From Paludibacter propionicigenes WB4 (GTDB lineage: Bacteria > Bacteroidota > Bacteroidia > Bacteroidales > Paludibacteraceae): a DNA stretch of 64,000 nt. The notes under the pieces were generated by a model. The model made no database searches, was not told where the DNA came from, and saw only the letters and a list, made by a program, of their open reading frames with translations. Made by a program: the position numbers and the translations under genes. Location: the NCBI RefSeq assembly GCF_000183135.1, contig NC_014734.1, forward strand, positions 2,170,001 through 2,234,000, given 5' to 3'. Positions 3,221-44,928 of this stretch are shown in pieces (position 1 is the stretch's first letter; each line of letters starts with the position of its first letter).

Positions 3221-3340
3221 GATTCTATCAAGTTGCAATTGTACAAATTATCATTGAATAAACAATATAGGTTTTTATTAAAAAACAAATGCCGCCATTA
3301 GAACACTAATATAAGCAGATTCAAAGGCTATTTTCAATTT

Positions 3341-11530: not shown

Positions 11531-11569
11531 TTTTGATTCAATTAGATTTAAGTGATTTGAATACACTGC

Positions 11570-15328: not shown

Positions 15329-15510
15329 CCGAGCCACCTTATCCTACTTCAATAGCAGGTAATCCTACTTCCGAACTACCTTTTTCTAGTTCAATAGTTG
15401 GCTATCCAACTCCTAAACTACATTATCTTGGTTCAATAGCAGGTTTTCCTAGTCCCGAACTACCTTGTCCTGCTTCGATAGCAGGTTTGCCTAGTTCCGG
15501 ACTATACTTT
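15329..15510. repeat. Second tandem array with a 42-nt period, overlapping the 3' end of the GH5-GH26 gene
   Basis: Units of 42 nt start at 15329, 15371, 15413 and 15455, with a partial fifth at 15497. The sequence differs from the array at 5662-5829, but it has the same period and the same build of two related 21-nt halves. Small hairpins recur, for example CCTGCT (15469-15474) with AGCAGG (15480-15485). The minus-strand stop codon of the GH5-GH26 gene, at 15491-15493, lies inside unit 4, so the last few residues of that protein are encoded by the array. Confidence 0.88.
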
Positions 15511-17899
15511 TCTGAGATTTTAACGGTACATACATGGGTGGCATATTGTTACTCATCACCATCCTCTTGCTTTCGGTGAATTTTTTAAAATCATTAGCCG
15601 ACGAGTGCCCTGGGTAGGGTGCATAAAAATGAGTTTCTTTGTTAAATGCATTTCTCCAAAGCAACACATAGCTAATGTTGAAAGGCTCTATAATTGGCAA
15701 CAGAATGTTTGTAAAATAATCGGCTACCGGAATAGACTCCATACCTGTTTCTGCCAAAACGGGAATCTTATTATTAAGCTTTGCATAATCAGTCACTACA
15801 TGTAATCCTGCAGTCACATCCTTTTTATATCTTTCGATAGACAATTTATCTGAACCGCAATAATTATCGAAACCTACCACATCCACCCAGTCGTTACCCG
15901 GATAGCGGCTTAGAAATTCAGTTTCGGTAGTTATGCCTGCTGGCGAAAAAGCGTACAAAATATTATGAACACCCTTTACATCGCGCAAATAACTTACGGT
16001 CATACGATATAATTGGTTGTATTCGTCAGGAGTACATTGTTTGGCTCCCCACCAAAACCAACTACCGGTATGCTCGTGGAACATGCGGAAAATAACAGGG
16101 AACGTTTCGCCTTTCGAATCTTTCAAATCATTAAAGAAAACGGCCAAACGATCCAGCCAGGTCAGAAATTTCGCATGATTGCTTCCACCCGGCAATACAC
16201 TGCTTACCACTGTATTTTGAGCACAATCCCAAGCAGTTTTTCCGGTAACAATGTTATCACCATGCCAGCTAATAGTGTTGATACCGCCGCGTTCATACAC
16301 TTCGCGCATCATGCGTTTCATGTCAGTAAAATAAATTGAATCAAGATTATATGCTGCACCGATTTCCAGATGACCTAACTCCCAACCCACCATGGCCGGA
16401 TAATCACCTGTAACTGCTTTTACATCGGATCCGCCTGCTTTGCCATACCAACCGTGTCCGTAAGCAGGGTCATCCTGATGACACAACATAATGCCTTTGC
16501 CCAGATTATTGAACATGTTGTAAAACAACGCTTGCGTTTTTGGCGTAGCGTTTATATCCACCAACGTCGGAATATTTTGCATTTTCATCACATATTTTTT
16601 TACCAACTTCACAGTGGCATCTGTATTGAAAACTGCATTCAGACCTTGTTCTTCCTGAGCGGGATCGCCCAGATAATCGTCGCCTTTAACCCAATACACA
16701 TGTTTTGGATTGGGACGACCGAAACCACCCCATGCCCAGAAATTACATCCGGCCAGAACATCTTTTTCTTTCGAAGATTTCAGGATTTTTTCAAAAACGG
16801 AAGTATAATAAGTATCGCGCAAGCTGGTAGTGTCTGTGAGCGTATATTGATGATGATCACGTGGAAAACCAAACTCTTCCAACACGATTGGTTTTGACAA
16901 CTTACGGGCAACAGCCATATGATTATTCATGTATTCAGCTGTTTTATCAATACTATTTTGTAAAGTACCCGGCATATCTTTCACATCCAACCAACTCCAG
17001 TTTTTAGGCCAGATATGCATGGTCAGGTAATCGACATTTTTATCGGCATGAATTTGCTCAAACAAACCCATATCCATTTCACAGCCCCACTGTCCCTCGG
17101 AGCCGATAGAAACCATGTGATTTTTATCCAACGACTTAATGTAAGCCGAAATATCTTTCAACCAAGCAGCAAAAAGAGGTTTGTTGGCATCTGAGAAAGC
17201 GCGTGGCTCGTTACCAATTTGCCAGGAAAAAATAGCCGGATCTTCAGTATATTTTTTATTTGTGTAACGGTTAGTGCGGGTAATAACATGCTTAATGTGA
17301 TTTTTCAGCATCTGACGGCATTCATCACAACCAGCGTACTGTTTTACAAACTCCATATATGCGGGCCAACCATCAACCGAAGGAATTGGATTCTTTCCTT
17401 TACCAGCCCAGTTAAGGTACTGGCTGTATCCGCCCGACCACTCCCATGAGTTGGTAAAAAACAATACCGCTTTCATATCGCGCTTGCCCAATTCCGACAA
17501 TAAAAAATCCAATCCATCAAAAATAGTATCGTTGTAGACACCCGCTTTTATCTGCAAGGTTGGCTCTACTTTCGATGGAATACCATTGCTTCCATCGGAA
17601 CCAATAAGTACACGCAAGTTCACCAACCCGTTTTCCTTCATAAAATCCAGTTCTTTGATCAAACGTGCCCTATCACCACCCTGGCCTTTTGAGCCCAGAA
17701 TAGCTCCAAACCAGAAGTTAGTCCCTACAAAATAATAAGGCTGTCCATTTTGAACGAAATTACCCTTGGTATTTGTTTTTACAAAAGACATAGACGTTTT
17801 TGCAAAACCATTCATAGATATTAATAAAAATAGAAGAACCCCTAACCCCTGAAGGGGAATTAGATTAGTTCTGTTTTTTTTATATTCTTTAATTTTCAT
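15491..17899 (-). CDS. Bimodular endo-beta-1,4-mannanase, GH5_7 plus GH26
   Basis: An 802-residue secreted enzyme with two catalytic domains in one chain, starting at ATG 17899. The N-terminal GH5 (subfamily 7-like) domain, about residues 35-440, has acid/base Glu231 in WQIGNEPR and nucleophile Glu342 in IVLEEFGFPRD. The C-terminal GH26 domain, about 450-790, has acid/base Glu609 in RMFHEHTGSWFWWG and nucleophile Glu717 in VLAETGMES. Both families include endo-mannanases, so this is the main backbone-cutting enzyme of the locus. The signal peptide contains a mini-repeat: codons 14-21 (IPLQGLGV) are the 23-nt element at 17837-17859. The C terminus runs into the second 42-nt array. An upstream ATG at 17953 is in frame but would move the signal peptide inward. 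Confidence 0.92.
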   Translation of the reverse strand: MKIKEYKKNRTNLIPLQGLGVLLFLLISMNGFAKTSMSFVKTNTKGNFVQNGQPYYFVGTNFWFGAILGSKGQGGDRARLIKELDFMKENGLVNLRVLIGSDGSNGIPSKVEPTLQIKAGVYNDTIFDGLDFLLSELGKRDMKAVLFFTNSWEWSGGYSQYLNWAGKGKNPIPSVDGWPAYMEFVKQYAGCDECRQMLKNHIKHVITRTNRYTNKKYTEDPAIFSWQIGNEPRAFSDANKPLFAAWLKDISAYIKSLDKNHMVSIGSEGQWGCEMDMGLFEQIHADKNVDYLTMHIWPKNWSWLDVKDMPGTLQNSIDKTAEYMNNHMAVARKLSKPIVLEEFGFPRDHHQYTLTDTTSLRDTYYTSVFEKILKSSKEKDVLAGCNFWAWGGFGRPNPKHVYWVKGDDYLGDPAQEEQGLNAVFNTDATVKLVKKYVMKMQNIPTLVDINATPKTQALFYNMFNNLGKGIMLCHQDDPAYGHGWYGKAGGSDVKAVTGDYPAMVGWELGHLEIGAAYNLDSIYFTDMKRMMREVYERGGINTISWHGDNIVTGKTAWDCAQNTVVSSVLPGGSNHAKFLTWLDRLAVFFNDLKDSKGETFPVIFRMFHEHTGSWFWWGAKQCTPDEYNQLYRMTVSYLRDVKGVHNILYAFSPAGITTETEFLSRYPGNDWVDVVGFDNYCGSDKLSIERYKKDVTAGLHVVTDYAKLNNKIPVLAETGMESIPVADYFTNILLPIIEPFNISYVLLWRNAFNKETHFYAPYPGHSSANDFKKFTESKRMVMSNNMPPMYVPLKSQKSIVRN
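17837..17859 (-). repeat. GC-rich 23-nt mini-repeat inside the signal-peptide codons of the mannanase
   Basis: Read on the minus strand, this 23-nt segment is identical to 47447-47469 on the plus strand (starts TTCCCCTTCAGGGGTTAGGG). Here it is translated as part of the hydrophobic signal region, IPLQGLGV. The two copies lie 30 kb apart and are read in different frames. Confidence 0.9.
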
Positions 17900-17940
17900 T
17901 CTCACAGTTATATCATTATAAATATCATAAGTAATATTGT

Positions 17941-18017
17941 CCCCCCCTTTCAAGGGCTAGAAGTTATTCTATTACTTTCTTTTAGAGTTTATACGTCAAT
18001 TGACGGAGGTTAGGGGT
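17941..18017 (-). repeat. Probable degenerate mini-repeat between the mannanase and esterase genes
   Basis: The segment holds CCCCCCTTTCAAGGGCTAG at its left side and GGAGGTTAGGGGTCGTC about 50 nt later, both reminiscent of the 23-nt mini-repeat (C-run, centre, G-run, TTAGGGG). It may be a split or rearranged copy. The match is loose. Confidence 0.45.
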
Positions 18018-18023
18018 CGTCAT

Positions 18024-19433
18024 TTACGGCTTATATTGAATCATATCCGTTCTGAACGGAATTAATGGTAAGCCATTGGTATCGAATAAATCGGGCGTAG
18101 CGTCGTTTGTAAAGCAATAGCGAACTGACACGGGCACTTTCACTTCTTTGCTTGAAACAGTGATAGAACCATCTTTTTCTATTTTAGCTACAGCCGGAAA
18201 AAACTGGTTGTCGGCTCCTGCCAGTTGAAAATTAGCCGGAGTTTTGGCTTTACAAATCAACTTTCCGCTAGTTGTAAACCGAATATTGATTTTATCTTTT
18301 TTAATGCTGAAATTTTTATAACGAGGATGGTATGGATTTACATCCTGAAAACCATAGTGTTCTTTCAATGCCAGGTTTACCAGTCGCATTCCCACTTCTT
18401 TCTTTATTCTGGGGTGAATATCTTTGATGTTGTCTACTAAATCACCTACTGTTATCATCCCCGTTTTAGGCAAATGAAGTACTGCCTCCTGTTGTTCGCG
18501 CAGGTAAGCCGCACTGTTTTTCCCGTAGCCGCTCCATGGCGCAATTTGTACGAAATAGAATGGGAAGTCGTTATTGAATGCCTTTCTCCAACCGGTTATA
18601 AGCCCTTCAAACAGTTTGCTATAGTTTTGCGGTTCGCCGGTATTGCCTTCTCCCTGATACCAAATAGCTCCTGCAATTTTATAGTTCACCAGCGGTTGCA
18701 ACATCGAATTGTAGATGACAGCTGGTGCGACCGGTGCCCAATTAACCGCTTTGGTATCTTCGGCCAGTGTTTTTAGTTCCGCATTTTCCGCAAAAACTTC
18801 GTTTGGAATCCACGACTGTACATTTGTCCCACCCCAATACGACGCGATGAGTCCCACGGGAGCTTTCGTTTTTTCATTGATTGTTTTGCCAAAGAAATAG
18901 CCGGCAACGCTCATGGATGGAGTAGTTTCGGGCGAACTGATTTTCCATTCACCATCCGAGTTATCTTTGGGGTAAATGCTGTAAGTATGCGAAAGTTGAA
19001 AGAAGCGCAACTGATTATTGGCCGATTTAGCCACTGCATCACCAACATCGATGGGCTTTGATTCCCAGTTAAAAGCATATTCCATGTTCGATTGACCGGA
19101 ACATAACCAAACTTCTCCAATTAAAATATCTTCAATAACCACTTTTTGTGAGCTACTGATAAATGTAATGGTGTAAGGACCGCCTGCTTTCGGCGTTTTT
19201 ACAATAGCATCCCATGTCCAGTCTTTACGGGGTTCCGCTTTCACGGTATCCGTTGGATTCCAACTACAACTTATCTTTACGGTGCTGCCACTTTGAGCCC
19301 AGCCCCACAATTTCACATCTGTAGATTGTTGTAATACAGCATGATTACTAATAATAGACGGTAAGCGAAAAGCCCATTGCGCTGAAGTATTTAAAGCAAG
19401 GCATAAAAGAATTGGTACAAGTAATTTTTTCAT
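18024..19433 (-). CDS. Sialate-O-acetylesterase-type carbohydrate esterase (SASA/SGNH)
   Basis: A 469-residue secreted esterase starting at ATG 19433 (MKKLLVPILLCLALNTSAQ, a clear signal peptide); the frame reaches back to 19550 but that part is not signal-like. SGNH features: block I GEVWLCSGQSNMEY with candidate nucleophile Ser115, block III WYQGEGNTGEPQNY, and the Asp-His pair in VGDLVDNIKDIHPRIKKE. The N terminus carries the usual jelly-roll (LPSIISNHAVLQQ). Family members remove O-acetyl groups from sugars. Next to mannanases, the likely substrate is acetylated glucomannan, not sialic acid. It is the first gene of the minus-strand mannan operon and sits directly downstream of a promoter and the shared 27-bp element. 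Confidence 0.85.
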   Translation of the reverse strand: MKKLLVPILLCLALNTSAQWAFRLPSIISNHAVLQQSTDVKLWGWAQSGSTVKISCSWNPTDTVKAEPRKDWTWDAIVKTPKAGGPYTITFISSSQKVVIEDILIGEVWLCSGQSNMEYAFNWESKPIDVGDAVAKSANNQLRFFQLSHTYSIYPKDNSDGEWKISSPETTPSMSVAGYFFGKTINEKTKAPVGLIASYWGGTNVQSWIPNEVFAENAELKTLAEDTKAVNWAPVAPAVIYNSMLQPLVNYKIAGAIWYQGEGNTGEPQNYSKLFEGLITGWRKAFNNDFPFYFVQIAPWSGYGKNSAAYLREQQEAVLHLPKTGMITVGDLVDNIKDIHPRIKKEVGMRLVNLALKEHYGFQDVNPYHPRYKNFSIKKDKINIRFTTSGKLICKAKTPANFQLAGADNQFFPAVAKIEKDGSITVSSKEVKVPVSVRYCFTNDATPDLFDTNGLPLIPFRTDMIQYKP

Positions 19434-19517
19434 TGTATTGAATTTAAATAATAATGCAAACGAGTATCCATTAAACATTTCCATGAGGTCAACCCGAAAC
19501 AAATTATTCTCGACACG

Positions 19518-19525
19518 CAAAAATA
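19518..19525 (-). promoter_or_regulatory. -7 promoter box of the mannan operon
   Basis: On the minus strand this reads TATTTTTG, matching the Bacteroidota -7 consensus TAnnTTTG. It is 85 nt upstream of the esterase start. The -33 region is a weak TTTT at about the right distance, as is common for activator-dependent promoters. Confidence 0.6.
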
Positions 19526-19555
19526 AAGCATTCGTACTAAGTAAAACCATATTTA

Positions 19556-19582
19556 TTTAGCCATACATGATACTATTTCTAC
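19556..19582 (-). promoter_or_regulatory. 27-bp element shared with the SusC operon promoter (candidate activator site)
   Basis: On the plus strand it reads TTTAGCC, then TA, ATGATACT and TTTCTAC with single variable bases between. It matches 24 of 27 positions at 31317-31343. In both cases the element begins 31 nt upstream of the end of a TAnnTTTG box on the minus strand, about -38 to -65 from the start of transcription. The identical spacing argues for a protein-binding site. Confidence 0.7.
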
Positions 19583-20141
19583 TCTTTGATTATTATTTAC
19601 ACTTAAACAGTTAATTCGAATTGGTGAATATTTCAACCGAGAATAATCAAACAATTGAAGAAATCAAAAGCCTTAATGTGTTCAAAAAAGGAATAATTAG
19701 CTAAAAACAATTACAAATCAGTTTTCGACAGTGATTATCCCTATTCAGAAGCATCACAAGTAGCTGATTTTTTGACACTAATATTCAATAGTACAATTTA
19801 GAAGAATAAGACTTAAAATTGGAGTAATAATTACATCAAGAATAAAAAATCTAATCTTACTGCAGTTTAGAAGTGAAAAAACATTCCCTTTTTCATTTTC
19901 AACGATATTGATTAAAGAGAAAAACATGCCATTGATCAAGAACCTATATTCAAAGGGATTTATCTTTATTTTATTCCATTTTTTTAATGTATATGATAGA
20001 AAAACAACATTTTTAGGAATTTAAAATTGACGTTGTAAGGCAATAAAAAAATGTTATGCGAAAAAATAAACAATGTAGCACTACAGCGAGTTTTAGCACC
20101 TAATACTTTTGTATCAGCCTATCAAACAGTTAATTGCATAT
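19583..20141. other. Gene-free AT-rich intergenic region
   Basis: About 560 nt between the mannan operon promoter and the end of the RidA-like operon. I see no open frame of useful length and no tRNA. There is a plus-strand TACTTTTG at 20104-20111 that resembles a -7 box but leads to no gene. A small unannotated RNA cannot be excluded. Confidence 0.5.
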
Positions 20142-20178
20142 GAAAAAGCTCCTTTATCATATTACAGATTAAGGAGCT
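20142..20178 (-). terminator. Terminator of the SusC-to-RidA operon
   Basis: Inverted repeat AGCTCCTT (20147-20154) with AAGGAGCT (20171-20178) and a 16-nt loop. On the minus strand the stem is followed by GCTTTTTCATATG, a T-tract. It lies 28 nt after the stop codon of the last operon gene. Confidence 0.7.
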
Positions 20179-20205
20179 AAAAATTATATGTTAATGTCAT
20201 TGTGC

Positions 20206-21321
20206 TTAAAGACTACTAAATTTATCATTTTTATCTTTCCTCAAAGCGATACATTCCATTTCAATAAGCCAAGTTGGACGGCAAACAGGTGCAAGCACAA
20301 ATTGTTTTGGAATCCTTAAATATCGATCGTCAAGAATAGGCTTGACAACAGAATAATCAGCAGCGTCTCGCAGATATATAATAATCTGTGCTAAATCTTC
20401 CCTGTTAGAACCTCCCTCTTCCAGAAGCTTCTCTACATTTTCGCACATCCTGCGAGCCTGAGATACCACATCCCCTTTATATAGTACCTCTCCTTTACTA
20501 TCAATACTAGCTGTACCGCTAATATAAAGTTGTCGTCTATCTCCATACAATACACAAACTCCTCTTTCAAATGTCACACCATATACAGCCGTAGGACTCA
20601 TATGGCTCAATGCATAAAGATATTTCATTTGACCTGATTGTAATCCTTTAACTGCATATGCATCTAACAATACATAAACATTAGGGTTTGCATGACGACC
20701 TTCAATTCCTGTGCTTGCAATATAATGAGTCTGCTCCGTAAGTCCTTGTTCTACAAAGTTCTCGCGACGAGCTTTCACTAATCCGGCATAATTTACATCT
20801 ACATTTTGAACAAAGAACCAAGTACGTATGCAATCTCTTTCCAATAAACACCCATATTGTTGTAACTCCAACTCGTATTTTTGTAAAAGCAGATGAGTCT
20901 GCTCTTCTGAATTTCCAGAAGCAATTCCTAAACCAGCCATCCAATAGTGTTCATATACAGGATTAGTATCCTTTATTAAATAACACCACAATGCAATCTT
21001 ACTACCATCCAAAGGAGACTGTTGAAGAATGGAAGTTGGGCATGCAGGAAACAATTTCAGCTCTTCCTGTAGTTGTTCAGCTTGATTAGCTGCGTCGCTA
21101 AGAAAATAACGTTTCAGGACCGGTTTCGCACCATTCATTGATTCATCTTCCAGAAACTCTCTATAAGCCCGATGCAAATTTTGTAACTGAGTTTCATAAT
21201 TTAAATCTCTTCCTTTTACATGAAGCATGAGATGGTACTCCATTGCATGCCCGGTCTCTCCAAAAAAAGAAAGCTCTACATTTACATTATGAGTGGAAAA
21301 TGTATAAGACCTATATTTCAT
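20206..21321 (-). CDS. RidA/YjgF-fold protein (tandem Rid domains, chorismatase-like)
   Basis: A 371-residue soluble protein with no signal peptide. The C-terminal part is a RidA/YjgF-like domain: LYISGTASIDSKGEVLYKGDVVSQARRMCENVEKLLEEGG, AQIIIYLRDAADYSVVKPILDDR, and the end PVCRPTWLIEMECIA, which corresponds to the substrate-binding Arg and Glu segment of the family. The central part (SGNSEEQTHLLLQKYELELQQYG) looks like a second, diverged copy, as in FkbO/Hyg5-type chorismatases. Family functions range from enamine/imine deamination to chorismate hydrolysis; the substrate is not identifiable. Its start codon directly abuts the stop of the PD40 gene, so the two are probably translationally coupled. 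Its place in a SusCD operon is unusual. Confidence 0.65.
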   Translation of the reverse strand: MKYRSYTFSTHNVNVELSFFGETGHAMEYHLMLHVKGRDLNYETQLQNLHRAYREFLEDESMNGAKPVLKRYFLSDAANQAEQLQEELKLFPACPTSILQQSPLDGSKIALWCYLIKDTNPVYEHYWMAGLGIASGNSEEQTHLLLQKYELELQQYGCLLERDCIRTWFFVQNVDVNYAGLVKARRENFVEQGLTEQTHYIASTGIEGRHANPNVYVLLDAYAVKGLQSGQMKYLYALSHMSPTAVYGVTFERGVCVLYGDRRQLYISGTASIDSKGEVLYKGDVVSQARRMCENVEKLLEEGGSNREDLAQIIIYLRDAADYSVVKPILDDRYLRIPKQFVLAPVCRPTWLIEMECIALRKDKNDKFSSL

Positions 21322-22791
21322 TTATTTTCTAACTTTTACTTGTATACGTTCTGCAGATGTGAGTACACTTTCCATTTCTCTTCTATTCCATTTTACAGGT
21401 GAAGACACAAAATCAGGTACATTATATGAATAGACAGACTCATCATAATAACAGAAAGGTTTTTTCTGTGGCAAAAGGAAAGGTTTACTTATAACTCCTT
21501 TATCATCTATGGAAGCTATATACAAACGCGTATACAATCCTCCACCACGGCGGCTACTAAACACAAACCAATGCGAATTACTACTCCAATTATGATAACT
21601 CTCCGTATCATCACTATTCACTTCATCCAGTCTCCTTATACTTTTATCAGCTAGATTAAGTAACCATAAATCAGCTTCTTTATGCCAAATTGAAAAGTTT
21701 CCGTAATCAGACAGGGTGAACATTATATATTTACCATCATAAGATGGACGAGGAAATGATACACTTTTATTCAGCACCTTTGCAGACACAAGTGTATCTA
21801 CATGACTACCAAAAGTTCCTTTTTTAGGATCAAAACCAATGCTGCATAAACTATATTTCACATCTTTGTAATCCTTTGGAATATTCTTCTGCGAAGCAGA
21901 ACAAAAATACAATGTACGCCCATCAGCAGAAAAAGCAGGAAAAGTCTCAAACGAAGGGGTTTTTAAAAGATTAGTTGTCAACACCTGATTCGTTTCCGGT
22001 TGATATACAATTACATCCGACTCTAAATCTACCACCTCAATGCGCTCCTCTTTTGCCTCATGAAATACCTGACGGGTTTTATTAACCGAATAAGCTATAT
22101 ATTTTCCCGATGGATGCCAATATGGATAAACAAAGGACCCTATAGTTTCATCTGCTTTGGTATTTAGAAACACAGATTTACCATTGATATTCAGATAAGT
22201 AGCTCCATTTTTTCCACGTACATGCATACTTGAATAATTTGGGTTTGTTTTATTAAAACTATGGCAATTAACACAAGAGCCAATAACAAGAGTATTCTCA
22301 TACAATGGTGTCTGGTTATAAGATGATAACTCGCGTTGATAAATACCCATTTTACTATAAATCTCATATCCTGGAGCAATTAATCGATAGACTAATCCAT
22401 AATCAATAGGATATTTACTTATATAAATTGGGAACGGTTTATATTGTCTCCATTTCCCTGTCTGCTCCAAACAAACCGTTACTAAAAGACTGTCACCGAT
22501 ATTGCTTTCCAACAAACTTTTCCACTCTGAAGAAGAAAAAGATACGTCATCACCGCTAAAGTGTATTTCGTTCCCGTTTTTACCTTTGACAACTACATCT
22601 ATCCTATCAAAAACCTCTTCAGGCAGTGTGAAATTCAGAGGTGCGATAGTAGCCGGTATTGTTACACCTACATAATCAGGATAAATAAGAGGGTATTTAT
22701 CTATTTGAGAAGGTGATTTCACTTGATTATTGCAAGAAATACCAGCCATTATAATCAATAGAAGGCAGATTATACGTTTTATTCTTTTCAT
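21322..22791 (-). CDS. PD40/TolB-like beta-propeller lipoprotein with a CxxCH haem-binding motif
   Basis: A 489-residue probable lipoprotein: signal peptide ending MAGISC (Cys20). A single cytochrome-c-type motif CVNCH sits at residues 173-177, preceded by LYENTLVIGS. After it come WD40-like (PD40) repeats: YPYWHPSGKYIAYSVN, TFPAFSADGRTLYFCSAS, SFPRPSYDGKYIMFTLSD and YHNWSSNSHWFVFSSRRGGG. The last includes a DTESYHNWSSNSHW pattern typical of TolB-like propellers. The protein should be exported and may carry covalent haem, or use the Cys pair otherwise. It overlaps the upstream DUF6057 gene by 4 nt, a sign of coupled expression. No function is established; a sensor, scaffold or redox role is conjecture. 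Confidence 0.72.
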   Translation of the reverse strand: MKRIKRIICLLLIIMAGISCNNQVKSPSQIDKYPLIYPDYVGVTIPATIAPLNFTLPEEVFDRIDVVVKGKNGNEIHFSGDDVSFSSSEWKSLLESNIGDSLLVTVCLEQTGKWRQYKPFPIYISKYPIDYGLVYRLIAPGYEIYSKMGIYQRELSSYNQTPLYENTLVIGSCVNCHSFNKTNPNYSSMHVRGKNGATYLNINGKSVFLNTKADETIGSFVYPYWHPSGKYIAYSVNKTRQVFHEAKEERIEVVDLESDVIVYQPETNQVLTTNLLKTPSFETFPAFSADGRTLYFCSASQKNIPKDYKDVKYSLCSIGFDPKKGTFGSHVDTLVSAKVLNKSVSFPRPSYDGKYIMFTLSDYGNFSIWHKEADLWLLNLADKSIRRLDEVNSDDTESYHNWSSNSHWFVFSSRRGGGLYTRLYIASIDDKGVISKPFLLPQKKPFCYYDESVYSYNVPDFVSSPVKWNRREMESVLTSAERIQVKVRK

Positions 22792-24578
22792 GATTTTTTA
22801 GCTCCAAAATGTAAGTAATACCAATATGTATCTCCGAATCGTTCTTTTAATATTGGGCCTGCGTTTTTTTCCTGCAAATATATCGGAGCATATTCCAGTA
22901 AACGTTCTGTTATCTGAGGATCAATAGGCCATGGGGCTTTTTCCTTTAATGGGTGATGTTTCAAACTCCAAATAAATAATAATTCCTCTTGATAGCTTTT
23001 AGGTATATGGCTATAACCTATATCCTTACCTAATGGGTAATAATTGATGAATTTTTGCATGTCTTTACTAAGCAAAGTACAAGCCATCAAATACTCATAA
23101 GCCATACGATTACTTTTATTATTCTGAAATAGAATTCCTAACATAACGTCAAGTTCATCTTCACTAAAAAGGGAATCGGCTTTATAACGTAATTGTCTTA
23201 ATCTTCCCCACTCAGGATGCGTATTTATTCGTTTTTCATCATTTAGATAAGTCAATGTTTCTGTTGCCCAATTACGATAAAAGAGTGTATGCTGCAATAC
23301 TCTCAAATATTTAGCAGCAACTTTATATTGTCCATTAATTAAATTTGTTTCAGCTAAACGTTTAAAACAACTTGCACTCTTTTGATAATCCGGAATCGAT
23401 TCCATTGCTTCAAACACTAAACGCTGAGCTGTATTTATCATTCCCAACTGATAATAGATCTCACTTGTTGGAAGAGGAGAAGTAAAATCCGGTTCAAAAT
23501 GAGGAATTAAGCCCTGTACTCCATTTTGATAATAACTGAACATGTTATCACCAAGTACTCCAGTCTTGGCTAAAGCAAGATTCAAGCAAGAAACCGACAT
23601 TGGTGCAGTTGGAGTTTTTTTTGCCGCCATTACGATGACTTTGTCCCATTCTTGCATTTTCACATAATGAGCATATCCCATTAGCTCCTCTTTATTCCAA
23701 TTAGCTGCGTTGCCAATCAAGTAGCCTCCACTTATTATTAGCAATGCAATTTGTAATGCCATTACTATAATGTACTTCTTTGCTGAAATTATCTTTGGTA
23801 AGAAACGAGGCAAAACTGACACGACAAATACTAACGACCAAACAATTAGTTGTCCGTAAGGAGAAATCTTTGGAAAGCGATAAAAGCCAATCCCGAACCA
23901 CAAGTTTTCTAACGGATATTGATAGAAATATTTAGATAGTAAAGGAGAAAATATGATCAATAGTACTGAACCAATAGACATTACGAACCAACGAAAATCT
24001 ATTTTCACTCTCCAATAGTTAATTTCAAACAGTACCATAAATACAGCAAAAAACCAGAAGCAACCGCTACAAGAAATATACAGTATTGGAGTAAGGACAA
24101 TAGTAGATATCACTCGAAATGTACGGGAATGAATGGTCGTGCAAACAATAACTGCTGCCAATACTATTATTAATAAAATTAATCCGGAAAGCATATAATT
24201 TTCGTCACACAGCAAAATCCAATAAGCAATAGAAGGCAAAAATGTTATTGGATAGAACGCGTTATTGCAACCCAACTTCTTTGTAAGCCAGGCAACTTCT
24301 CTTTGCAACAAAACCAACAGCACAGCTATAATGAGTGAGCCGGCCCAAGAATAATAAAAAAATTGGACGAAGAAACGTCCTAAATATAGAGCCATTCCAC
24401 CCGGCTCAGATACTGTTTCAAAAAAATAGCTCGGAGTAAACAGAAACATCTGAAATAATTCATGATATTGAACATGAAAAGGATAGTAGAAATTAAAGAA
24501 AATAAAAGCACACACTCCCAATAAGATTGATAGTAGTGTATTTGTTTTTATTATGTGAGTGTTTAATATTTCTTTCAT
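22788..24578 (-). CDS. Polytopic membrane protein, DUF6057-like, with C-terminal helical repeats
   Basis: A 596-residue protein. The first ~300 residues contain about ten hydrophobic segments, beginning TLLSILLGVCAFIFFNFYYP and including a run of paired helices around ISTIVLTPILYISCSGCFWFF. The remaining ~290 residues are soluble and look like TPR-type helical repeats (TNLINGQYKVAAKYLRVLQ, YEYLMACTLLSKDMQKFINYYP). This build matches what I know as DUF6057, a Bacteroidales family of unknown function. It is encoded between the DUF4369 lipoprotein and the PD40/CxxCH lipoprotein and overlaps the latter by 4 nt. The soluble half could bind a partner protein encoded in the same operon. No reaction can be proposed from the sequence. 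Confidence 0.7.
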   Translation of the reverse strand: MKEILNTHIIKTNTLLSILLGVCAFIFFNFYYPFHVQYHELFQMFLFTPSYFFETVSEPGGMALYLGRFFVQFFYYSWAGSLIIAVLLVLLQREVAWLTKKLGCNNAFYPITFLPSIAYWILLCDENYMLSGLILLIIVLAAVIVCTTIHSRTFRVISTIVLTPILYISCSGCFWFFAVFMVLFEINYWRVKIDFRWFVMSIGSVLLIIFSPLLSKYFYQYPLENLWFGIGFYRFPKISPYGQLIVWSLVFVVSVLPRFLPKIISAKKYIIVMALQIALLIISGGYLIGNAANWNKEELMGYAHYVKMQEWDKVIVMAAKKTPTAPMSVSCLNLALAKTGVLGDNMFSYYQNGVQGLIPHFEPDFTSPLPTSEIYYQLGMINTAQRLVFEAMESIPDYQKSASCFKRLAETNLINGQYKVAAKYLRVLQHTLFYRNWATETLTYLNDEKRINTHPEWGRLRQLRYKADSLFSEDELDVMLGILFQNNKSNRMAYEYLMACTLLSKDMQKFINYYPLGKDIGYSHIPKSYQEELLFIWSLKHHPLKEKAPWPIDPQITERLLEYAPIYLQEKNAGPILKERFGDTYWYYLHFGAKKS

Positions 24579-24727
24579 CGTATTATATTTAAGATTCCTA
24601 GTTTAACAATGTGCGTAATGAGGCTAAACCTAAGGTTTTGGAAATAAATAAAATAAGGTTAATCGTTCTAGCAAGATGATTTAATTCTGGATATTGTTAT
24701 CCCGAATTTCGGAAACAGTTGTTGTTC

Positions 24728-25303
24728 TTATTTGTTGGAGTTACCTGTTAACTTCCGGACAAACGTTCCAACTGTATTATCGCCTTGTTCTTTGAGGAAG
24801 CGCTCGTTAAATAACTTCTCGCGTTTAATGATAGCATCCTTTTGAGATAGCCAACGAAGCGAGTCTTTTCCGCTCACCGAGCGTAATCCTGCTGTAACAA
24901 AGCTATAAGCAGACATCGATTTTTCTCGTTCTTCTTTCCACAATTGCAGTGCATCATTTTGTGGTGTACCATGAGCAGAACTGACAGAATCAAGAATAGC
25001 CTTAGTAGTGCCGGGCTCTGTAACAATCAACAATTCTTGTAATTTTAAGCGTAAAAGTGCTCGTGACCGAATAATAGACATCCGTTCAATATTACCTTCG
25101 AAAGTAAAGGAAGCATTTGCAATTTTTACAGAATCAACAGTGTGGGAATTTGCTCCTTCAATGGGGACTAAATAAATCCATTCTCCATCGTACTTTGTTG
25201 ATGGCACTGAACCCGTAATTTTGAAATCTTTTTTGGGAGAGTTACAACTTATACAACAAGTTATAAGCAGCAATACGTATAGTGTTTTATTTTGCATTAT
25301 CAT
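24728..25303 (-). CDS. DUF4369-like lipoprotein
   Basis: A 191-residue lipoprotein: signal peptide with lipobox ITCCISC, then the DUF4369 pattern FKITGSVPSTKYDGEWIYLVP, TVDSVKIANASFTFEG and a charged helical tail (LWKEEREKSM, KREKLFNERFLKE). DUF4369 domains often precede thioredoxin-like domains in Bacteroidales, but here no thioredoxin domain follows, so this is a stand-alone form. It is separated from the upstream lipoprotein gene by about 160 nt containing a strong hairpin, and from DUF6057 by about 150 nt. From memory, small lipoproteins in similar positions of the Bacteroides SusCD system BT2261-BT2264 associate with the SusCD complex; whether that applies here is untested. Confidence 0.72.
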   Translation of the reverse strand: MIMQNKTLYVLLLITCCISCNSPKKDFKITGSVPSTKYDGEWIYLVPIEGANSHTVDSVKIANASFTFEGNIERMSIIRSRALLRLKLQELLIVTEPGTTKAILDSVSSAHGTPQNDALQLWKEEREKSMSAYSFVTAGLRSVSGKDSLRWLSQKDAIIKREKLFNERFLKEQGDNTVGTFVRKLTGNSNK

Positions 25304-25389
25304 TGTAGGTTAATCGTATTACAAATATAGCAAATAGTTTTAGATGTTGTTCCTTATCTCAATATCCCAATACTATATATTTAACAAGA

Positions 25390-25426
25390 ATATAGGGCGA
25401 AATTTAGTTTAAATTTCGCCCTATAT
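25390..25426. terminator. Perfect intra-operon hairpin between two lipoprotein genes
   Basis: A perfect inverted repeat of about 16 bp: arms ATATAGGGCGAAATTT (25390-25405) and its complement (25411-25426), with a 5-nt loop. On the minus strand the stem is followed by TCTTGTTAAAT, only a poor T-tract. It may be a partial terminator or an RNA-stabilising stem that sets a high ratio of SusCD to downstream products. Confidence 0.65.
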
Positions 25427-25462
25427 ATAAATTATAATTTACTGATTTTGATCTACAATAAA

Positions 25463-26296
25463 TTATTTAGCTTTAAAACACCAGAACCAACAAGTACCCC
25501 AAGCTCCTGCACCAGCTTCAGGACAAGCTAAATACAAATGATCTGCATCTAACTTAAGAATATCATACTCATTGATCACTTTATTTCCAGCATTCGGCTG
25601 AATACCCAAAAGTACATTTACACTTTTAGTATATAATTTACCAATACCCCATACATTATCTCCTGCGGGAGTTTTTTTGGACATGTCGAAAGTAAATGAT
25701 CCAACAGTTCCATCACTCTTAGTTATTTTTGCACCTTTAAGAGAAAACACCATAGATCCGTTTTTTCCATCACCAGGAAAGCCTTTTTCTATAGCCTGTG
25801 TTTCAATTGCATCTACATTGTTAGTCCACCATCCTGGAGTTGTGTTACCCAGGTAACCACCATTACCCCAAGGTGTTCCCATTACATCATCCCAAACCCA
25901 TGTTTTGGTCCCTTTATCGCCACAAAATACAGCCCATTCAGGTTCTACATCAAACAATTTATCTACATGTACAATTAATGTTTTCTTTATGATAGTTCCA
26001 TCTGCGTTCATACCGTTATACACGATTTCATTATCACCAGCCATCATTACTTTAACAGTAGCTTTGGTCTTGGTTACTACCCCAAAACCATAATCCCAGG
26101 AAGTTAAGCAGGCATTCCCTTCGCTATTCAACTCGATGTAATTCGACTTTACACCTTCTTTAATTACCGGAGTAGCCGAAATCTTCAACTGATCAGCAGT
26201 AATGCCTCCAGTCATTGTATCGCGGTCTTCAATAGGGTCACAAGCAATTAACATTGCAGTTCCCACAAGCATTGAAAATATAATTGACTTTTTCAT
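25463..26296 (-). CDS. Surface lipoprotein of a SusCD operon (probable glycan- or ligand-binding protein)
   Basis: A 277-residue lipoprotein (signal peptide MKKSIIFSMLVGTAMLIAC, Cys19). The mature N-terminal part looks like an Ig/PKD-type domain (LKISATPVIKEGVKSNYIELNSEG, KTKATVKVMMAGDNEIVYNG, TLIVHVDKLF). The C-terminal part is rich in Trp and Gly (WVWDDVMGTPWGNGGYLG, WGIGKLYTKSVN, GAWGTCWFWCF), as in sugar-binding surface proteins. It follows susD directly on the minus strand, the usual place for a surface glycan-binding protein. Its ligand is unknown. From memory it resembles the extra lipoproteins of the Bacteroides BT2261-BT2264 complex, which would favour a non-glycan ligand; I cannot test this here. 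Confidence 0.68.
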   Translation of the reverse strand: MKKSIIFSMLVGTAMLIACDPIEDRDTMTGGITADQLKISATPVIKEGVKSNYIELNSEGNACLTSWDYGFGVVTKTKATVKVMMAGDNEIVYNGMNADGTIIKKTLIVHVDKLFDVEPEWAVFCGDKGTKTWVWDDVMGTPWGNGGYLGNTTPGWWTNNVDAIETQAIEKGFPGDGKNGSMVFSLKGAKITKSDGTVGSFTFDMSKKTPAGDNVWGIGKLYTKSVNVLLGIQPNAGNKVINEYDILKLDADHLYLACPEAGAGAWGTCWFWCFKAK

Positions 26297-26324
26297 TCTT
26301 CTTACTATTTAATAATTTATATTA

Positions 26325-28055
26325 TTAGTTATTCCAGCTTGAGAAATTAGCCGATGCGTCATCCCAACCCGGATTTTGCTTCAAAGCACCGTTAGACAAA
26401 TCGATCTCTGTCTTTGGAATCGGGAAGAATCCTCTAGTGGCTTTATAACGAGCTACATATCCTGTTCCCTGATCTTTCATTGTAGTCTCCTGACCTTTAT
26501 TCCAGATAGTCTCACCAACCTGCTTAGCTAAAGCTGTTTCAGCATCATGCCAACGACGAATATCGCCCCAACGAAGACCTTCAAAAGCTAGCTCATGACG
26601 ACGCTCCTTTTTCAACGCATCAAGAGAATAAGCAATATTAGAAAGACCTGCACGAGCACGAACCTTATTCATACCATCAGCTGTACCGGTCAATTCTGAA
26701 TGCATCAATAATACATCTGCAAAACGAATTAAATTTAAGTTCTGAGCATGAGATACCTGAAAATGGCTAGTGGTTCCGTCTCCATAGTAATCAGTTGTAG
26801 AACAAAAACTAGGAAGATTATTAGCACCAACAATGGCACGAGTTGCAACAATTTTAGATTGCCACAAACCTGTTTCTTCCATCTGACTATCACGCCCTTT
26901 TGGAAAATCTGATTTAACCTGATAAACAGAAGCTCCGCGACGAATGTCGGTTGGTTCTTCAGTACTCCAGTCATTCCACAAATTAGCTGCAACAGGCCCT
27001 TGTCCCCAACCTTGTCCGATAGGATAAGTTCCAGTCAATCCATAGTCTGTGCTTCCGTCACGAATACCAAAGAAAAGCGCATATTCATTAGCAAATCCAA
27101 GTTTATCACCATTCCAAGTTGATTGATAAGAGAAGTTAAGAGTAAAAACCTGTTCAGGATTTGAACCATCTTTCAACCATGTCTTAGTTGTTTTATCAAT
27201 CTGATAAGTAGAGTTTTTACTTGTCGCAGAATTTGTATACGGCCACAAACTGCGGAAGTCAGGAGCAAGGCTATGCCCTGAGTTTTGAATACAATCGTTC
27301 AAACCGGTTACCACAAAATCTTTAGCCAATTTAGTTCCATCAACTAATGGAAGAGCATCCTTTTGATAAAAGCCTGTATAGAACAAATATACACGAGCCA
27401 ACAAAGCCTCTGCAGCCCAACGTGTTGCAGCACCATTAGTTGAACTGTTTGCAACCCATTTAGTGGCAGGCATGATTTCTACAGCCTTTTTTAAATCAGA
27501 AGCAATATGCGCATAAATAGAATCAGCAGGCATCTGCACAGGGGGTGTTTGAGCCTGTGCAACATTTTCTGGCGCTGCAGAAATTAATGGCACATTTTCG
27601 AACATTTGAGTCAATTCAAAATAGAAGTAGGCACGTAAGAAAAGTGCTTCACCTTTCTTTTGATTTCTGATTGTCTCATCAGCCACATTGTCCAAATTAG
27701 CCAGTGCCATATTTGCACGGTTAATTCCTTGATAACGTGCAGACCAAAAATCGCCAAAAATACTTGGAGTATTGATCATTAAGTGATCTGTAGCCTGAGC
27801 ATCTTTATCATTTTCACCACCACCACCATAACAATCATCTGAGGCCAATTGAGCCACATAGAAATATGTTTTATTTACACCCTTTTGAACTGCAATATTC
27901 ATGGTTGCATAAATAGCTGTAATCATTTGGGTAGCATCAGTTTCATTCAGAGGAAAATTCGATGAATTTTTCTGTGTCAAGTTCTCTGTAGTCAAGAAAT
28001 TATCACAACTTGAGAACAGAAAAGCCACTACTAGTAAATATATTAATTTTTTCAT
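26325..28055 (-). CDS. SusD/RagB-family outer-membrane nutrient-binding lipoprotein
   Basis: A 576-residue SusD homologue, normal length. Lipobox FLFSSC near residue 18, then the conserved start DNFLTTENLTQKN. SusD-type TPR helices include EALFLRAYFYFELTQMFENVPLI, and the C-terminal signatures are LKKERRHELAFEGLRWGDIRRW and FPIPKTEIDLSNGALKQNPGW. SusD proteins form the lid on the SusC barrel and present ligands for import. It is encoded 11 nt after susC and forms a pair with it. The ligand is not evident, though promoter similarity ties the operon to mannan use. Confidence 0.95.
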   Translation of the reverse strand: MKKLIYLLVVAFLFSSCDNFLTTENLTQKNSSNFPLNETDATQMITAIYATMNIAVQKGVNKTYFYVAQLASDDCYGGGGENDKDAQATDHLMINTPSIFGDFWSARYQGINRANMALANLDNVADETIRNQKKGEALFLRAYFYFELTQMFENVPLISAAPENVAQAQTPPVQMPADSIYAHIASDLKKAVEIMPATKWVANSSTNGAATRWAAEALLARVYLFYTGFYQKDALPLVDGTKLAKDFVVTGLNDCIQNSGHSLAPDFRSLWPYTNSATSKNSTYQIDKTTKTWLKDGSNPEQVFTLNFSYQSTWNGDKLGFANEYALFFGIRDGSTDYGLTGTYPIGQGWGQGPVAANLWNDWSTEEPTDIRRGASVYQVKSDFPKGRDSQMEETGLWQSKIVATRAIVGANNLPSFCSTTDYYGDGTTSHFQVSHAQNLNLIRFADVLLMHSELTGTADGMNKVRARAGLSNIAYSLDALKKERRHELAFEGLRWGDIRRWHDAETALAKQVGETIWNKGQETTMKDQGTGYVARYKATRGFFPIPKTEIDLSNGALKQNPGWDDASANFSSWNN

Positions 28056-28066
28056 TTTATTATCTA

Positions 28067-31000
28067 TTAAAATTTAATATTAGCACCTACTAAGAATGTT
28101 CTTGGACTTGGATAAAATCCTAAATCGATTCCTTTTACCCATGACTGGTCATTTCCATAACCAACTTCAGGATCCATTCCAGAGTACTTAGTGAAGGTAT
28201 AAAGGTTTTGAACTGTAAAGTAGAGACGAGCTTGTTGAAGTGGTAATTTTTTGAAGAGGGTTTTGAAATCATAACCTATAGTTACGTTTTGAATTTTCAA
28301 ATAATCGCCATTTTCAATATAGATGTCAGAGATATTCTGCCAGTTAGTATTTGACCCTGAAGTTAAGCGAGGTAATTTATTGGAAGTACCTTCACCTGTC
28401 CAACAACCAAAAATATCTGTTGTGAAGTTTTGATTCTTACTATCAGCAAATGAACGATATGATTTGGCAATTTGCTGACCGAATGCACCAGCACCAGCAA
28501 CATTAAAGTCAAAGCCCTTATAGCTAAAATTAAGACCTAAACCTAAAGTATAATCAGGATTTGGATCGCCAATCATAGTTTTATCTTTATCATCTATTTT
28601 ACCATCTCCATTAACATCTCTAAAGATAACATCTCCAGGTTGAGCTCCAGCTAACACACCTTTACCTGCTGCCTTATAAGCTGCTATTTCATCATAATTT
28701 TGGAAAACACCATCTGTTTTGTATCCATAAAAATAACCAATAGGATAACCTACCTGAGCGCGGTACATCTCTGCTGTTCCCTGACTTAAAACATCTGAAG
28801 CTCCATGGATGATACCTTCAGCATTTGCGATACGGGTTACATTGTTCTTATTGTTTGATATATTTACATTAACACCATAATTGAAATCTTTTCCAATTTT
28901 ATCCCTCCAGTTCAGAGCCAACTCAATACCTTTGTTTTCAACATCACCACCATTAATATATGGGGCATTTAGACCGTAAGTAGAAAGAATAGGAGCTTGA
29001 ACCAACCAGTTTTTAGTAGTCTTCTTATATAAGTCTAGAGCAACTCCTAAACGCGAATTAAAAAAGCGTGCATCAAAGCCTAAATCAGTCTGTTCAGATG
29101 TTTCCCAGGTCACATCAGGGTTCTTAAGAATATTCGCATACCCCCCTGTTGTTTGAGTAGATTTATCACCACCGAAGTAGTAACCATTAGTAACATCAAA
29201 AGAGAATGTTGTTAAATATTGGTAACCACTAATATTACAATTACCATTCTGTCCCCAACTTCCACGAAGTTTCAAGAAATCCATCCAATCCTTAGTAGAT
29301 TCCATCCAAGGCTCACTGGTCATTACCCAACCAACAGATCCTGAAGGGAAATAACCCCATTGTTTGCCGGGAGCAAAGTTTGAGGAACCATCAGCACGCA
29401 TTGTAAATGAAGCCATATACTTTTCATTATAGTCATAGTTTAAACGACCAAAGTAAGAAGATAAATCTCCTTCACCCCAAGGGCTACCACCTGCTGCTAT
29501 TTGAGACAATGCAGTAGACTTAGTATTGTCAACATATGCATTTTTCCAAGAGCCCAAGAATAAAGAATTTTGTCCTGAAGAACTAACATTTTCACCTAAT
29601 CCCCATTTTTCAGCAGATTGACCAACCATAACATCAAATGTATTGTCTTCTAATTTAAACTTATAAGACAATGTATTATCTATCGTCCAAGATGTACCTA
29701 CACTTTCATTCTGGCTAACTGTTTCTGTTGAAACCTGAGTATCCGAGCTAAGATTTCTTATTCTGTCATACGACCGATAAGAAGAAGCACTCATTTTGTA
29801 CCCAAATTGAGATTTGAAAATCAAATTCTTAATTGGTTGAATTTGCAAATAAGCAGTTGCTTGTAGATTATGATTTTTGGAAAGATTTAAGCCTTGACTC
29901 GAAAGAGCAGTATTTGCAATAGGGTTTCTTGCATTTGCATCAAAATTCCAGCCATCAGCAGCCTTCGATGCATAATCGTAATATCCACCAGCTGAATTAT
30001 AAACCGGCAATAATGGATTAGCTGTTAACAAGCTGTGAATAGAGTTCCAATAGATATTACCAATAGAAACACCAGACTTAGTATTATAAGAATAGTTCAA
30101 TGTTTCTCCGATTTTAATCGCATCAAAGTTATTCACTTTCAAAATTACATGATCAGAATTTATACGAGCTGTATAACGATCATAACTAGATGCAACAGGT
30201 TTTCCAAAAATACCGTCCTGAGAGGCATAAGAAAATCCTAAAGAGAATTTGGATAGTTCAGTACCACCAGTAAGGTTAATTGCATGATTCTGAACAGGAG
30301 CAGCTTTGTTATAGGATTCTTTCAGCCAGTTTGTGCCATTCCATGTTCCGTCCTGAATTGATTTATACAGAGCTGCAGGAAGCAAAGTAGACCAGCTATT
30401 TGCAGGATTACCCTCATTAAAATTTATCATGTCTTCAACAGCCATGTATTCTTTTGCATTCAGTAAAGCCGGCATTTTGTATGCGTATTGCGCACCATAA
30501 TAAGCATCATAAGAAACTGAAGTCTTACCAGATTTTCCTTGTTTTGTTGCTACCAGGATTACTCCATTTGCTGCACGTGCACCATAAATAGCTGCTGAAG
30601 CCGCATCTTTCAAAACATCAATAGATTCGATATCTGATGGGTTTAAGTTGTTAATATTACCACCAGCTACACCATCTATAACATATAAAGGACCTGAAGA
30701 ACCTACAGTCCCTAGACCACGAATATTTACTTTAAAACCTTCACCGGGTTGACCTGAGCTTTGTGTAATACTCACACCTGGACTCTGACTCTGTAAAGCA
30801 GTCAAAGCACTTGTTGTACTTAGCTTCTGAAGACTTTCACCACTTACCTGAACTGTCGCACCAGTAACAAGCTTCTTTCTCATGGTTCCGTAACCAATAG
30901 CTACAACCTCATTCAAAACTTGAGAGTCTGATTCAAGGCTTACATTAATTACATTACTTTTGACAGAAACTTCTTGTTTTTTCATTCCAATGTATGAAAA

Positions 31001-31219
31001 AATTAGTTTAGATCCTTGAGGAGCATTTAGGGTATACTTCCCATTGACATCGGTAATTGCTCCAGATGTAGTTCCCTTGACAAATACAGAAACGCCCACC
31101 ATTGGACTTCCATCACTTGCATCTGAAACAACTCCCGAAACTGAAAGATTCTGCTGGGCAGAAACAAAGCATACTCCAAATAAGAGTAGCGCCATTAGAA
31201 AATTGATTTTTCTTTTCAT
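28067..31219 (-). CDS. SusC/RagA-family TonB-dependent outer-membrane transporter
   Basis: A 1050-residue SusC-type porin. Signal peptide to QQN (MKRKINFLMALLLFGVCFVSAQ). Next a carboxypeptidase-D-regulatory-like domain (VSGVVSDASDGSPMVGVSVF, DVNGKYTLNAPQGSKLIFSYIG), then a TonB-box-like segment (LNEVVAIGYGTMRKK). The plug has SPGVSITQSSGQPGEGFKVNIRG, YVIDGVAGG and DVLKDAASAAIYGARAANG, followed by a 22-strand-type barrel ending FLVGANIKF. It imports the SusD-captured ligand using TonB energy. It is the first gene of a seven-gene minus-strand operon. There is no STN domain, so no direct anti-sigma signalling is indicated. Confidence 0.96.
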   Translation of the reverse strand: MKRKINFLMALLLFGVCFVSAQQNLSVSGVVSDASDGSPMVGVSVFVKGTTSGAITDVNGKYTLNAPQGSKLIFSYIGMKKQEVSVKSNVINVSLESDSQVLNEVVAIGYGTMRKKLVTGATVQVSGESLQKLSTTSALTALQSQSPGVSITQSSGQPGEGFKVNIRGLGTVGSSGPLYVIDGVAGGNINNLNPSDIESIDVLKDAASAAIYGARAANGVILVATKQGKSGKTSVSYDAYYGAQYAYKMPALLNAKEYMAVEDMINFNEGNPANSWSTLLPAALYKSIQDGTWNGTNWLKESYNKAAPVQNHAINLTGGTELSKFSLGFSYASQDGIFGKPVASSYDRYTARINSDHVILKVNNFDAIKIGETLNYSYNTKSGVSIGNIYWNSIHSLLTANPLLPVYNSAGGYYDYASKAADGWNFDANARNPIANTALSSQGLNLSKNHNLQATAYLQIQPIKNLIFKSQFGYKMSASSYRSYDRIRNLSSDTQVSTETVSQNESVGTSWTIDNTLSYKFKLEDNTFDVMVGQSAEKWGLGENVSSSGQNSLFLGSWKNAYVDNTKSTALSQIAAGGSPWGEGDLSSYFGRLNYDYNEKYMASFTMRADGSSNFAPGKQWGYFPSGSVGWVMTSEPWMESTKDWMDFLKLRGSWGQNGNCNISGYQYLTTFSFDVTNGYYFGGDKSTQTTGGYANILKNPDVTWETSEQTDLGFDARFFNSRLGVALDLYKKTTKNWLVQAPILSTYGLNAPYINGGDVENKGIELALNWRDKIGKDFNYGVNVNISNNKNNVTRIANAEGIIHGASDVLSQGTAEMYRAQVGYPIGYFYGYKTDGVFQNYDEIAAYKAAGKGVLAGAQPGDVIFRDVNGDGKIDDKDKTMIGDPNPDYTLGLGLNFSYKGFDFNVAGAGAFGQQIAKSYRSFADSKNQNFTTDIFGCWTGEGTSNKLPRLTSGSNTNWQNISDIYIENGDYLKIQNVTIGYDFKTLFKKLPLQQARLYFTVQNLYTFTKYSGMDPEVGYGNDQSWVKGIDLGFYPSPRTFLVGANIKF

Positions 31220-31278
31220 GGAATTAGTTTTAATATTAAAAGGTTAATTATTGTTGGAATTGATGTATTCCGACTGTG

Positions 31279-31286
31279 CAAAAGTA
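31279..31286 (-). promoter_or_regulatory. -7 promoter box of the SusC operon
   Basis: On the minus strand this reads TACTTTTG, a match to TAnnTTTG, 60 nt upstream of the susC start. No good -33 TTG is found at the normal distance, so an activator is probably needed. Confidence 0.65.
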
Positions 31287-31316
31287 TAGTATAGGGAACG
31301 ATAATAACTATATTAT

Positions 31317-31343
31317 TTTAGCCTTATATGATACTTTTTCTAC
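31317..31343 (-). promoter_or_regulatory. 27-bp element shared with the mannan operon promoter (candidate activator site)
   Basis: Plus-strand reading TTTAGCC, TA, ATGATACT, TTTCTAC with single variable bases between; 24 of 27 positions equal 19556-19582. It begins 31 nt beyond the -7 box at 31279-31286, the same offset as in the other promoter. Confidence 0.7.
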
Positions 31344-31344
31344 G

Positions 31345-44917: not shown

Positions 44918-44928
44918 CGTTGCTTTGG

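Follow-up and report, generated by a model that had tools for sequence, protein, structure and literature searches.

A conserved promoter element shared by a mannan-enzyme operon and a SusCD operon in Paludibacter propionicigenes and its probable AraC-family regulator

At araI1-I2, Escherichia coli AraC binds a direct repeat whose two half-sites are about 21 bp apart; the second overlaps the −35 region, and the AraC dimer touches RNA polymerase at araBAD. Regulators in the Bacteroidota are often guessed from gene neighborhood alone. In Zobellia galactanivorans, RNA-seq and mutant evidence supports a carrageenan regulon with the AraC-family protein CgrA, and deletion of this gene delays and reduces growth on the glycan (PMC5698469). 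A beta-mannan polysaccharide utilization locus (PUL) of Muricauda is induced by mannan, and its AraC-type factor, FG28_RS02325, is expressed (PMC9860051). Here, we describe a promoter element found twice in a 64,000-nucleotide stretch of Paludibacter propionicigenes WB4 (bases 2170001 to 2234000 of the single-contig, 3,685,504-base genome; the window), once before an operon of mannan-degrading enzymes and once before a susC-susD operon. From its sequence, conservation, and distribution, we consider it likely that an AraC-family activator uses this element as its operator; this activator is most likely the protein encoded at 2327-3238, which would co-induce the mannan operon and the genes for SusC, SusD, and a 277-aa protein.

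A conserved element at two promoters

The features that make up the two promoters are as follows.

19543..19582, minus strand: full putative operator of the mannan-enzyme operon (27-bp core at 19556-19582 plus an extension toward the promoter), from a 15-site alignment in which columns 1 to 40 are conserved
19518..19525, minus strand: −7 box TATTTTTG; 14 of 15 sites have TAnnTTTG at this distance, in one case with a 1-nt shift
31304..31343, minus strand: full putative operator of the susC operon (core at 31317-31343), from the same alignment
31279..31286, minus strand: −7 box TACTTTTG, with the same spacing evidence

The 27-mers on the mannan-enzyme side (19556-19582, TTTAGCCATACATGATACTATTTCTAC) and on the susC side (31317-31343, TTTAGCCTTATATGATACTTTTTCTAC) lie 11.8 kb apart and are identical at 24 of 27 positions. 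At both promoters, 30 nt separate the element from its minus-strand −7 box, and the frequency of TAnnTTTG in the window is 0.0008 per position. The identity, the boxes, and the equal spacing had been pointed out in a first-pass annotation of this DNA and are borne out by reading the sequence. Six 27-mer pairs with at least 24 matches remained after merging, in a count that covered same-strand pairs within the window; in five of them the copies are local, at under 220 bp from each other, and the element pair is the sole dispersed one. (Separately, a 27-base stretch is duplicated with one mismatch, 214 bp apart, in window 44750-44990.) Three first-order Markov simulations of the window yielded 0 comparable pairs. 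When up to 3 mismatches are allowed, the window has two matches to the consensus, against 0 in 100 shuffles, and the whole 3.69-Mb genome holds just these 2 copies, both in promoters, rather than the many promoterless copies that the first-pass annotation had named as a point that would speak against the element. The pair is thus real and not a product of chance.

The element is conserved beyond this genome. A scan of the genus at up to 3 mismatches found 13 sites in 9 of 48 Paludibacter genomes (that of strain WB4 included), and two further sites with 4 mismatches came from fetched neighborhoods, giving 15 aligned sites. These were picked on columns 1 to 27 only, with columns 28 to 40 and the −7 box unused in the choice, and 12 of the 13 columns from 28 to 40 carry more than 1 bit (uncorrected for the A+T-rich background). 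The consensus of the 15 sites is GTAGAAAnAGTATCATnTAnGGCTAAAnnAATATGGTTTT, then TATTTTTG. TAnnTTTG is present at 14 sites, at exactly 30 nt in 13 and at 31 nt in one, and the remaining site has TATTTTTA in its place. The 27-bp element of the first-pass annotation therefore stands as a core, but the conserved unit is longer, about 40 bp. The 15 sites are not 15 independent events, since several are homologous promoters of one gene class; their targets nonetheless include distinct genes, for SASA-type esterases, several classes of SusC, GH130 enzymes, and D-lyxose isomerases.

By its sequence, the unit probably consists of two AraC-type direct-repeat half-sites 21 bp apart, GTAGAAAnAGTATCAT and GCTAAAnnAATATGGT; self-similarity of the motif is best at this offset, where 11 of 20 consensus positions match. 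The boxes at 14 of the 15 sites agree with the Bacteroidetes sigma-ABfr promoter consensus, which has TAnnTTTG at −7 (PMC7366714). Near −33, we saw a GTTTT-like block at columns 36 to 40 and no clear TTTG. Counted from the −7 boxes, the core spans roughly −40 to −68 and the putative second half-site extends to the −33 region, where a bound dimer would touch RNA polymerase. This is compatible with the earlier suggestion that the position suits an activator contacting the polymerase. Position alone does not prove activation, and the site could belong to a repressor or another global factor; however, it lies upstream of and up to −33 rather than over the −7 box or the start, sites are few per genome, and their presence tracks one AraC protein, all of which makes such a factor very improbable.

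A profile of the element (R1) was run at a cutoff of E ≤ 1e-4 against 300 genomes of the family and in the genus scan. It matched 53 places in the genus, among them the 15 model sites and one chance match discussed below (C1:575039). A downstream reading frame was assigned by a mechanical pick for 51 of the 53, and 42 of these 51 start within 250 nt. The downstream products comprise SusC, SASA, GH130, GH2, D-lyxose isomerase family, GH28, GH88, GH65, and GH116 proteins, along with secreted or carbohydrate-binding proteins, some without a Pfam match; two GDSL esterases follow weaker sites (E 1e-3 to 2e-3). In one relative, G016, an element precedes SusCD and the next, 12.7 kb on, precedes SASA-GH26-GH2-GH130-GH27, the same order as in the window. 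G100, from another genus, has four matches (E 3e-7 to 3e-4) before genes for GH28, an alpha-amylase, a fibronectin-domain protein, and SusC. These sites bear on whether the two window promoters are alike merely because one was recently copied from the other, without shared regulation. In favor of copying, leader and head of susC do move as one. On the other hand, the window promoters are little alike outside the operator and −7 box, G016 has an equivalent of the SASA site in the same position, and in other genomes the site stands before many unrelated genes, so we find recent copying scarcely credible.

Strain WB4 itself has a third, weaker site that we kept (C1:3600496-3600554, L203; E 7e-6), 57 nt before the gene for a 577-aa protein whose start looks lipoprotein-like in our reading. 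Of 120 relatives listed for this protein, 8 bear the name alpha-L-arabinofuranosidase, and solved arabinofuranosidases match it weakly (best E 8e-4). Another candidate, C1:2054981, was rejected, as only model positions 19 to 67 matched (E 0.09). On 21 Bacteroides and Parabacteroides loci, R1 gave no convincing element (best E 0.013, in L018, between susD and the next gene).

The candidate regulator

The window contains a single AraC-type gene that we could find, the last of the mannan cluster.

2327..3238, minus strand: AraC-family regulator, proposed activator (PF12833/PF00165; co-occurrence with the element; predicted fold)

The 303-aa product has the C-terminal domain with two helix-turn-helix motifs (PF12833, E 1.8e-21, and PF00165), and solved AraC-type domains match residues about 190 to 299. 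A putative N-terminal ligand-binding and dimerization domain, for which PF02311 reaches only E 0.18 in sequence, is seen in the predicted fold. In the model (mean pLDDT 79.5, pTM 0.55, with the relative placing of the two domains unreliable), the N-terminal domain has seven strands plus helices and resembles the sugar-binding and dimerization domains of AraC and RhaR; the matching parts are strands 28-104 and helices 111-171 (AraC, 2arc/1xja; RhaR, 5u93). An AraC-type DNA-binding domain follows at the C terminus. The protein has no receiver or kinase domain. In a hybrid two-component system (HTCS), a single protein joins a sensor to a histidine kinase, a receiver, and an AraC-type domain; of these parts only the helix-turn-helix was matched here.

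The distribution of this protein follows that of the element. At the R1 cutoff, 20 of the 300 family genomes carry the element, and G100 is the only one outside the genus. An AraC at least 57% identical to that of the window occurs in 20 of the 300, with a fragment in G033 as well (86% over 102 aa). Both are present in 19 genomes, the element only in 1, the AraC only in 2, and neither in 278. The two AraC-only genomes are G020, for which no 5′ end of the mannan operon turned up, and G027, with a weaker element match (E 3e-4) before a susC. G100 also holds the closest AraC outside the genus, at 63%; the next is at 53%. In four genomes with an AraC of 49 to 52%, weak matches (E 5e-4 to 0.14) lie on the contig of that araC, three before susC and one (G040) 62 nt before araC itself. 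In G016, two tandem araC paralogs, 79 and 70% identical to the window AraC, lie at C1:277809-279802. This co-occurrence supports the AraC protein among the two regulators named by the first-pass annotation, the other being an HTCS. The AraC homologs also tend to differ at residue 231, which falls in the first recognition-helix region: it is Met or Ile in each of the 19 element genomes that were aligned, and among 14 element-less homologs (at most 54%) it is Phe in 11 and Ile in 3, a pattern that may be plain kinship.

Several points weigh against AraC control of a mannan regulon. A Fisher test of the co-occurrence gives 7.8e-27, a value that overstates the association because the genomes are kin and the 57% threshold was set after the gap to 54% was seen. 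The element-only genome (G018, 82% complete) has several sites and no AraC match, and 23 further family genomes have AraC homologs at 45 to 54% and no site at E ≤ 1e-4. The p value for the direct repeat, 0.005 at the offset of 21, is 0.068 when the best of 16 offsets (8 to 23) is taken. The match at C1:575039 (E 9e-5) lies inside a susC reading frame, was rejected as an own-genome site, and is probably due to chance, so an E value near 1e-4 is unsafe alone. Finally, sites in relatives precede genes for the pectinases GH28 and GH88 and, in G100, for an alpha-amylase. The regulon is thus not purely one of mannan, as in relatives it also takes in pectin and other genes.

Motif architecture alone cannot separate an AraC protein from an HTCS with an AraC-type output domain and the same 21-bp direct repeat, since published HTCS motifs likewise repeat directly, on average 21 bp apart (16+5+16 for HTCS_Man) (PMC3878776). 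In G037, moreover, a 1452-aa protein of HTCS size with an AraC-type domain (L083:5104-9462) is encoded directly upstream of an element-driven susC. However, this protein has no match at E ≤ 1e-250 among the 12 candidates, of 68, that received a score in the genome of strain WB4. At an identity of at least 60%, it occurs in 16 of 48 genomes, 8 with the element and 8 without. HTCS genes are absent from the window, and the 1452-aa protein is the only one of its size and domain in 58 stretches read, a count tilted toward AraC because several stretches were fetched for holding araC. We therefore regard an HTCS as an unlikely owner of the operator. An AraC-family activator most likely switches both operons together, since the same site recurs in relatives that carry that AraC. 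The first-pass proposal of a common activator site for both operons is in this respect supported, and its interpretation as a whole partly so.

In the mechanism that we propose, a dimer of the AraC protein would bind GTAGAAAnAGTATCAT and GCTAAAnnAATATGGT, directly upstream of the −33 region and with its second half overlapping it, and would bring RNA polymerase of the sigma-ABfr type to the TAnnTTTG box. In the presence of a mannan-derived sugar, presumably sensed by the N-terminal domain, two transcripts would be switched on together: the mannan/galactoglucomannan degradation operon, from the SASA esterase gene on, and susC-susD-277aa, for an outer-membrane importer.

The target operons and a mosaic SusC

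The transcript on the susC side comprises the following features.

28067..31219, minus strand: SusC, mosaic (residues 1-105, shared head; residues 106-1050, type-A body)
26325..28055, minus strand: SusD (Pfam)
25463..26296, minus strand: 277-aa protein without a Pfam match; homologs follow SusD in L014-L018 and L024
25390..25426, minus strand: hairpin, likely terminator of susC-susD-277aa (fold −23.2 kcal/mol, z −7.5)

The SusCD pair (26325-31219) is very probably a mannan importer, in view of the shared site, the gene order in G016, and homologous SusCs that stand beside araC, GH26, and GH130 genes. These SusCs, 52 to 55% identical to that of the window, come from Bacteroides and Parabacteroides, in one stretch of about 23 kb each: that of Bacteroides clarus has araC (47%), GH26 (55%), and a GH130-type gene (27%), that of B. 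oleiciplenus has araC (49%) and GH130 (75%), and that of Parabacteroides goldsteinii has a GH26-type gene (29%). The first-pass view of SusCD as the import arm of mannan use gains from these loci. By its position, the 277-aa protein is a candidate surface glycan-binding protein.

This transcript probably ends after three genes, at a hairpin with a perfect 17-bp stem and no strong T run. The case for termination rests on this one hairpin because the terminator scan overall did no better than shuffles (7 sites versus 7.8). Genes for DUF6057, PD40, and RidA-like proteins lie at window 20206-24578. The first-pass annotation had placed DUF6057, PD40/CxxCH, and RidA in the element-driven transcript as an accessory arm, which we judge unlikely given the hairpin after gene 3, the separate TAnnTTTG box of the DUF4369 gene (TATATTTG), and the rarity of DUF6057, which at E ≤ 1e-40 only 2 of 48 genus genomes contain (in the second, G012, it again stands beside PD40 and the element). 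Some read-through past the hairpin into DUF4369, DUF6057, PD40, and RidA may occur. On the other side of susC, a divergent tryptophanase-family gene (31905-33353) lies 560 bp from the element; we saw nothing linking it to control by the element.

The other transcript would begin with the SASA gene, whose start, an ATG at 19433, is our choice from the alignment with G016.

18024..19433, minus strand: SASA-type carbohydrate esterase, first gene of the mannan operon (PF03629)
15491..17953, minus strand: GH26 (PF02156)
12779..15265, minus strand: GH2 (Pfam)
11570..12766, minus strand: GH130 mannoside phosphorylase family (Pfam)
10316..11566, minus strand: GH27-type alpha-galactosidase (PF16499)
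8399..10177, minus strand: MFS sugar transporter (Pfam)
5889..8327, minus strand: GH94 (Pfam)
4388..5584, minus strand: AGE-family 2-epimerase (PF07221)
3341..4336, minus strand: GH5 (Pfam)

Pfam matches and the shared element together yield the gene set of a beta-mannan PUL (GH26/GH5 mannanase, GH130, GH27, epimerase, and SusCD). Two gaps in the cluster contain short repeats, at 5662-5814 (starts at 5662, 5704, and 5788) and 15436-15504 (15436 and 15478), and their RNA folds are weakly better than shuffles (z −1.4 and −2.4, respectively).

In sequence comparisons, the window SusC is a mosaic of a shared head and a plug and barrel of another type. Residues 1 to 105 are closest to other element-driven SusCs (up to 90% per 30 residues), and from about residue 106 on the protein is closest to a different type, for which a convincing element was absent in 10 of 10 other genus members examined, G037 apart (best partial E 0.04). 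Head and body trees disagree (ultrafast bootstrap, 83 at the head split and 100 at the body group). An MKRK start served to select 13 element-driven SusCs, among them that of G027 with its weak site; these have a common kind of head (55 to 90% identical) on four body types that are only 28 to 42% alike; the SusCs of G038 and G041 were left out of this comparison. Element-driven SusCs of G036, G043, G045, and G017 have other heads, 36 to 50% identical to the MKRK heads. Among 20 other SusCs used as controls (the L018 row was left out, as its longest frame is not SusC), two, L269 and L270, carry the head (75 and 70%) and no element. These controls led us to reject the head as an exact marker for the element; the leader and head also move independently of the element promoter. 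By these comparisons, heads appear to be exchanged among SusCs together with the leader, sometimes with the element promoter and sometimes without. We suggest only tentatively that leader, signal peptide, and N-terminal carboxypeptidase-regulatory-like domain form an exchange cassette and that foreign barrels have repeatedly been plugged behind the resident mannan promoter; if so, they would join the AraC regulon at once. A shufflon around susC was rejected, the longest inverted repeat in 18000-34000 being 34 nt at 71%.

Comparison with known systems

For hemicellulose use across one Bacteroidota genus, these results supply a putative operator, a candidate regulator, and a list of genes, and they would link a SusCD pair with its glycan on DNA evidence only. 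From the mosaic SusC, it seems that a new transporter might enter an existing regulon in a single step. We recognized no paper describing the element or AraC control in Paludibacter in a search that mostly did not reach subscription literature; the mechanism is of a known kind, and the regulon itself was not found described in the literature searched.

The layout proposed for the element resembles E. coli araI1-I2, and the predicted N-terminal fold of the 2327-3238 protein matches 2arc. The two systems differ in sequence, sigma factor, and inducer; the likeness is one of predicted fold and proposed layout. The motifs of HTCS_Man and other Bacteroides HTCSs also resemble that layout: they are direct repeats with a half-site spacing of about 21 bp and precede susCD and mannosidase genes. 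HTCS_Man, however, is a hybrid sensor regulator for alpha-mannan, whereas the regulator proposed here is a 303-aa protein without receiver or kinase (PMC3878776). In gene content, the window resembles the Muricauda beta-mannan PUL, with GH26, GH130, GH27, GH5, epimerase, SusCD, and an AraC-type factor; that PUL also encodes an HTCS, and no operator is named in that account (PMC9860051). The CgrA system concerns another glycan, with no operator described in that account, whereas the operator proposed here is known from sequence alone (PMC5698469). Like the window, it has an enzyme cluster that lacks susCD and includes an araC gene; the Zobellia susCD pair, which lies in another place, is co-induced and was taken by its authors as the importer (PMC5698469). 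The susCD of the window adjoins the enzymes.

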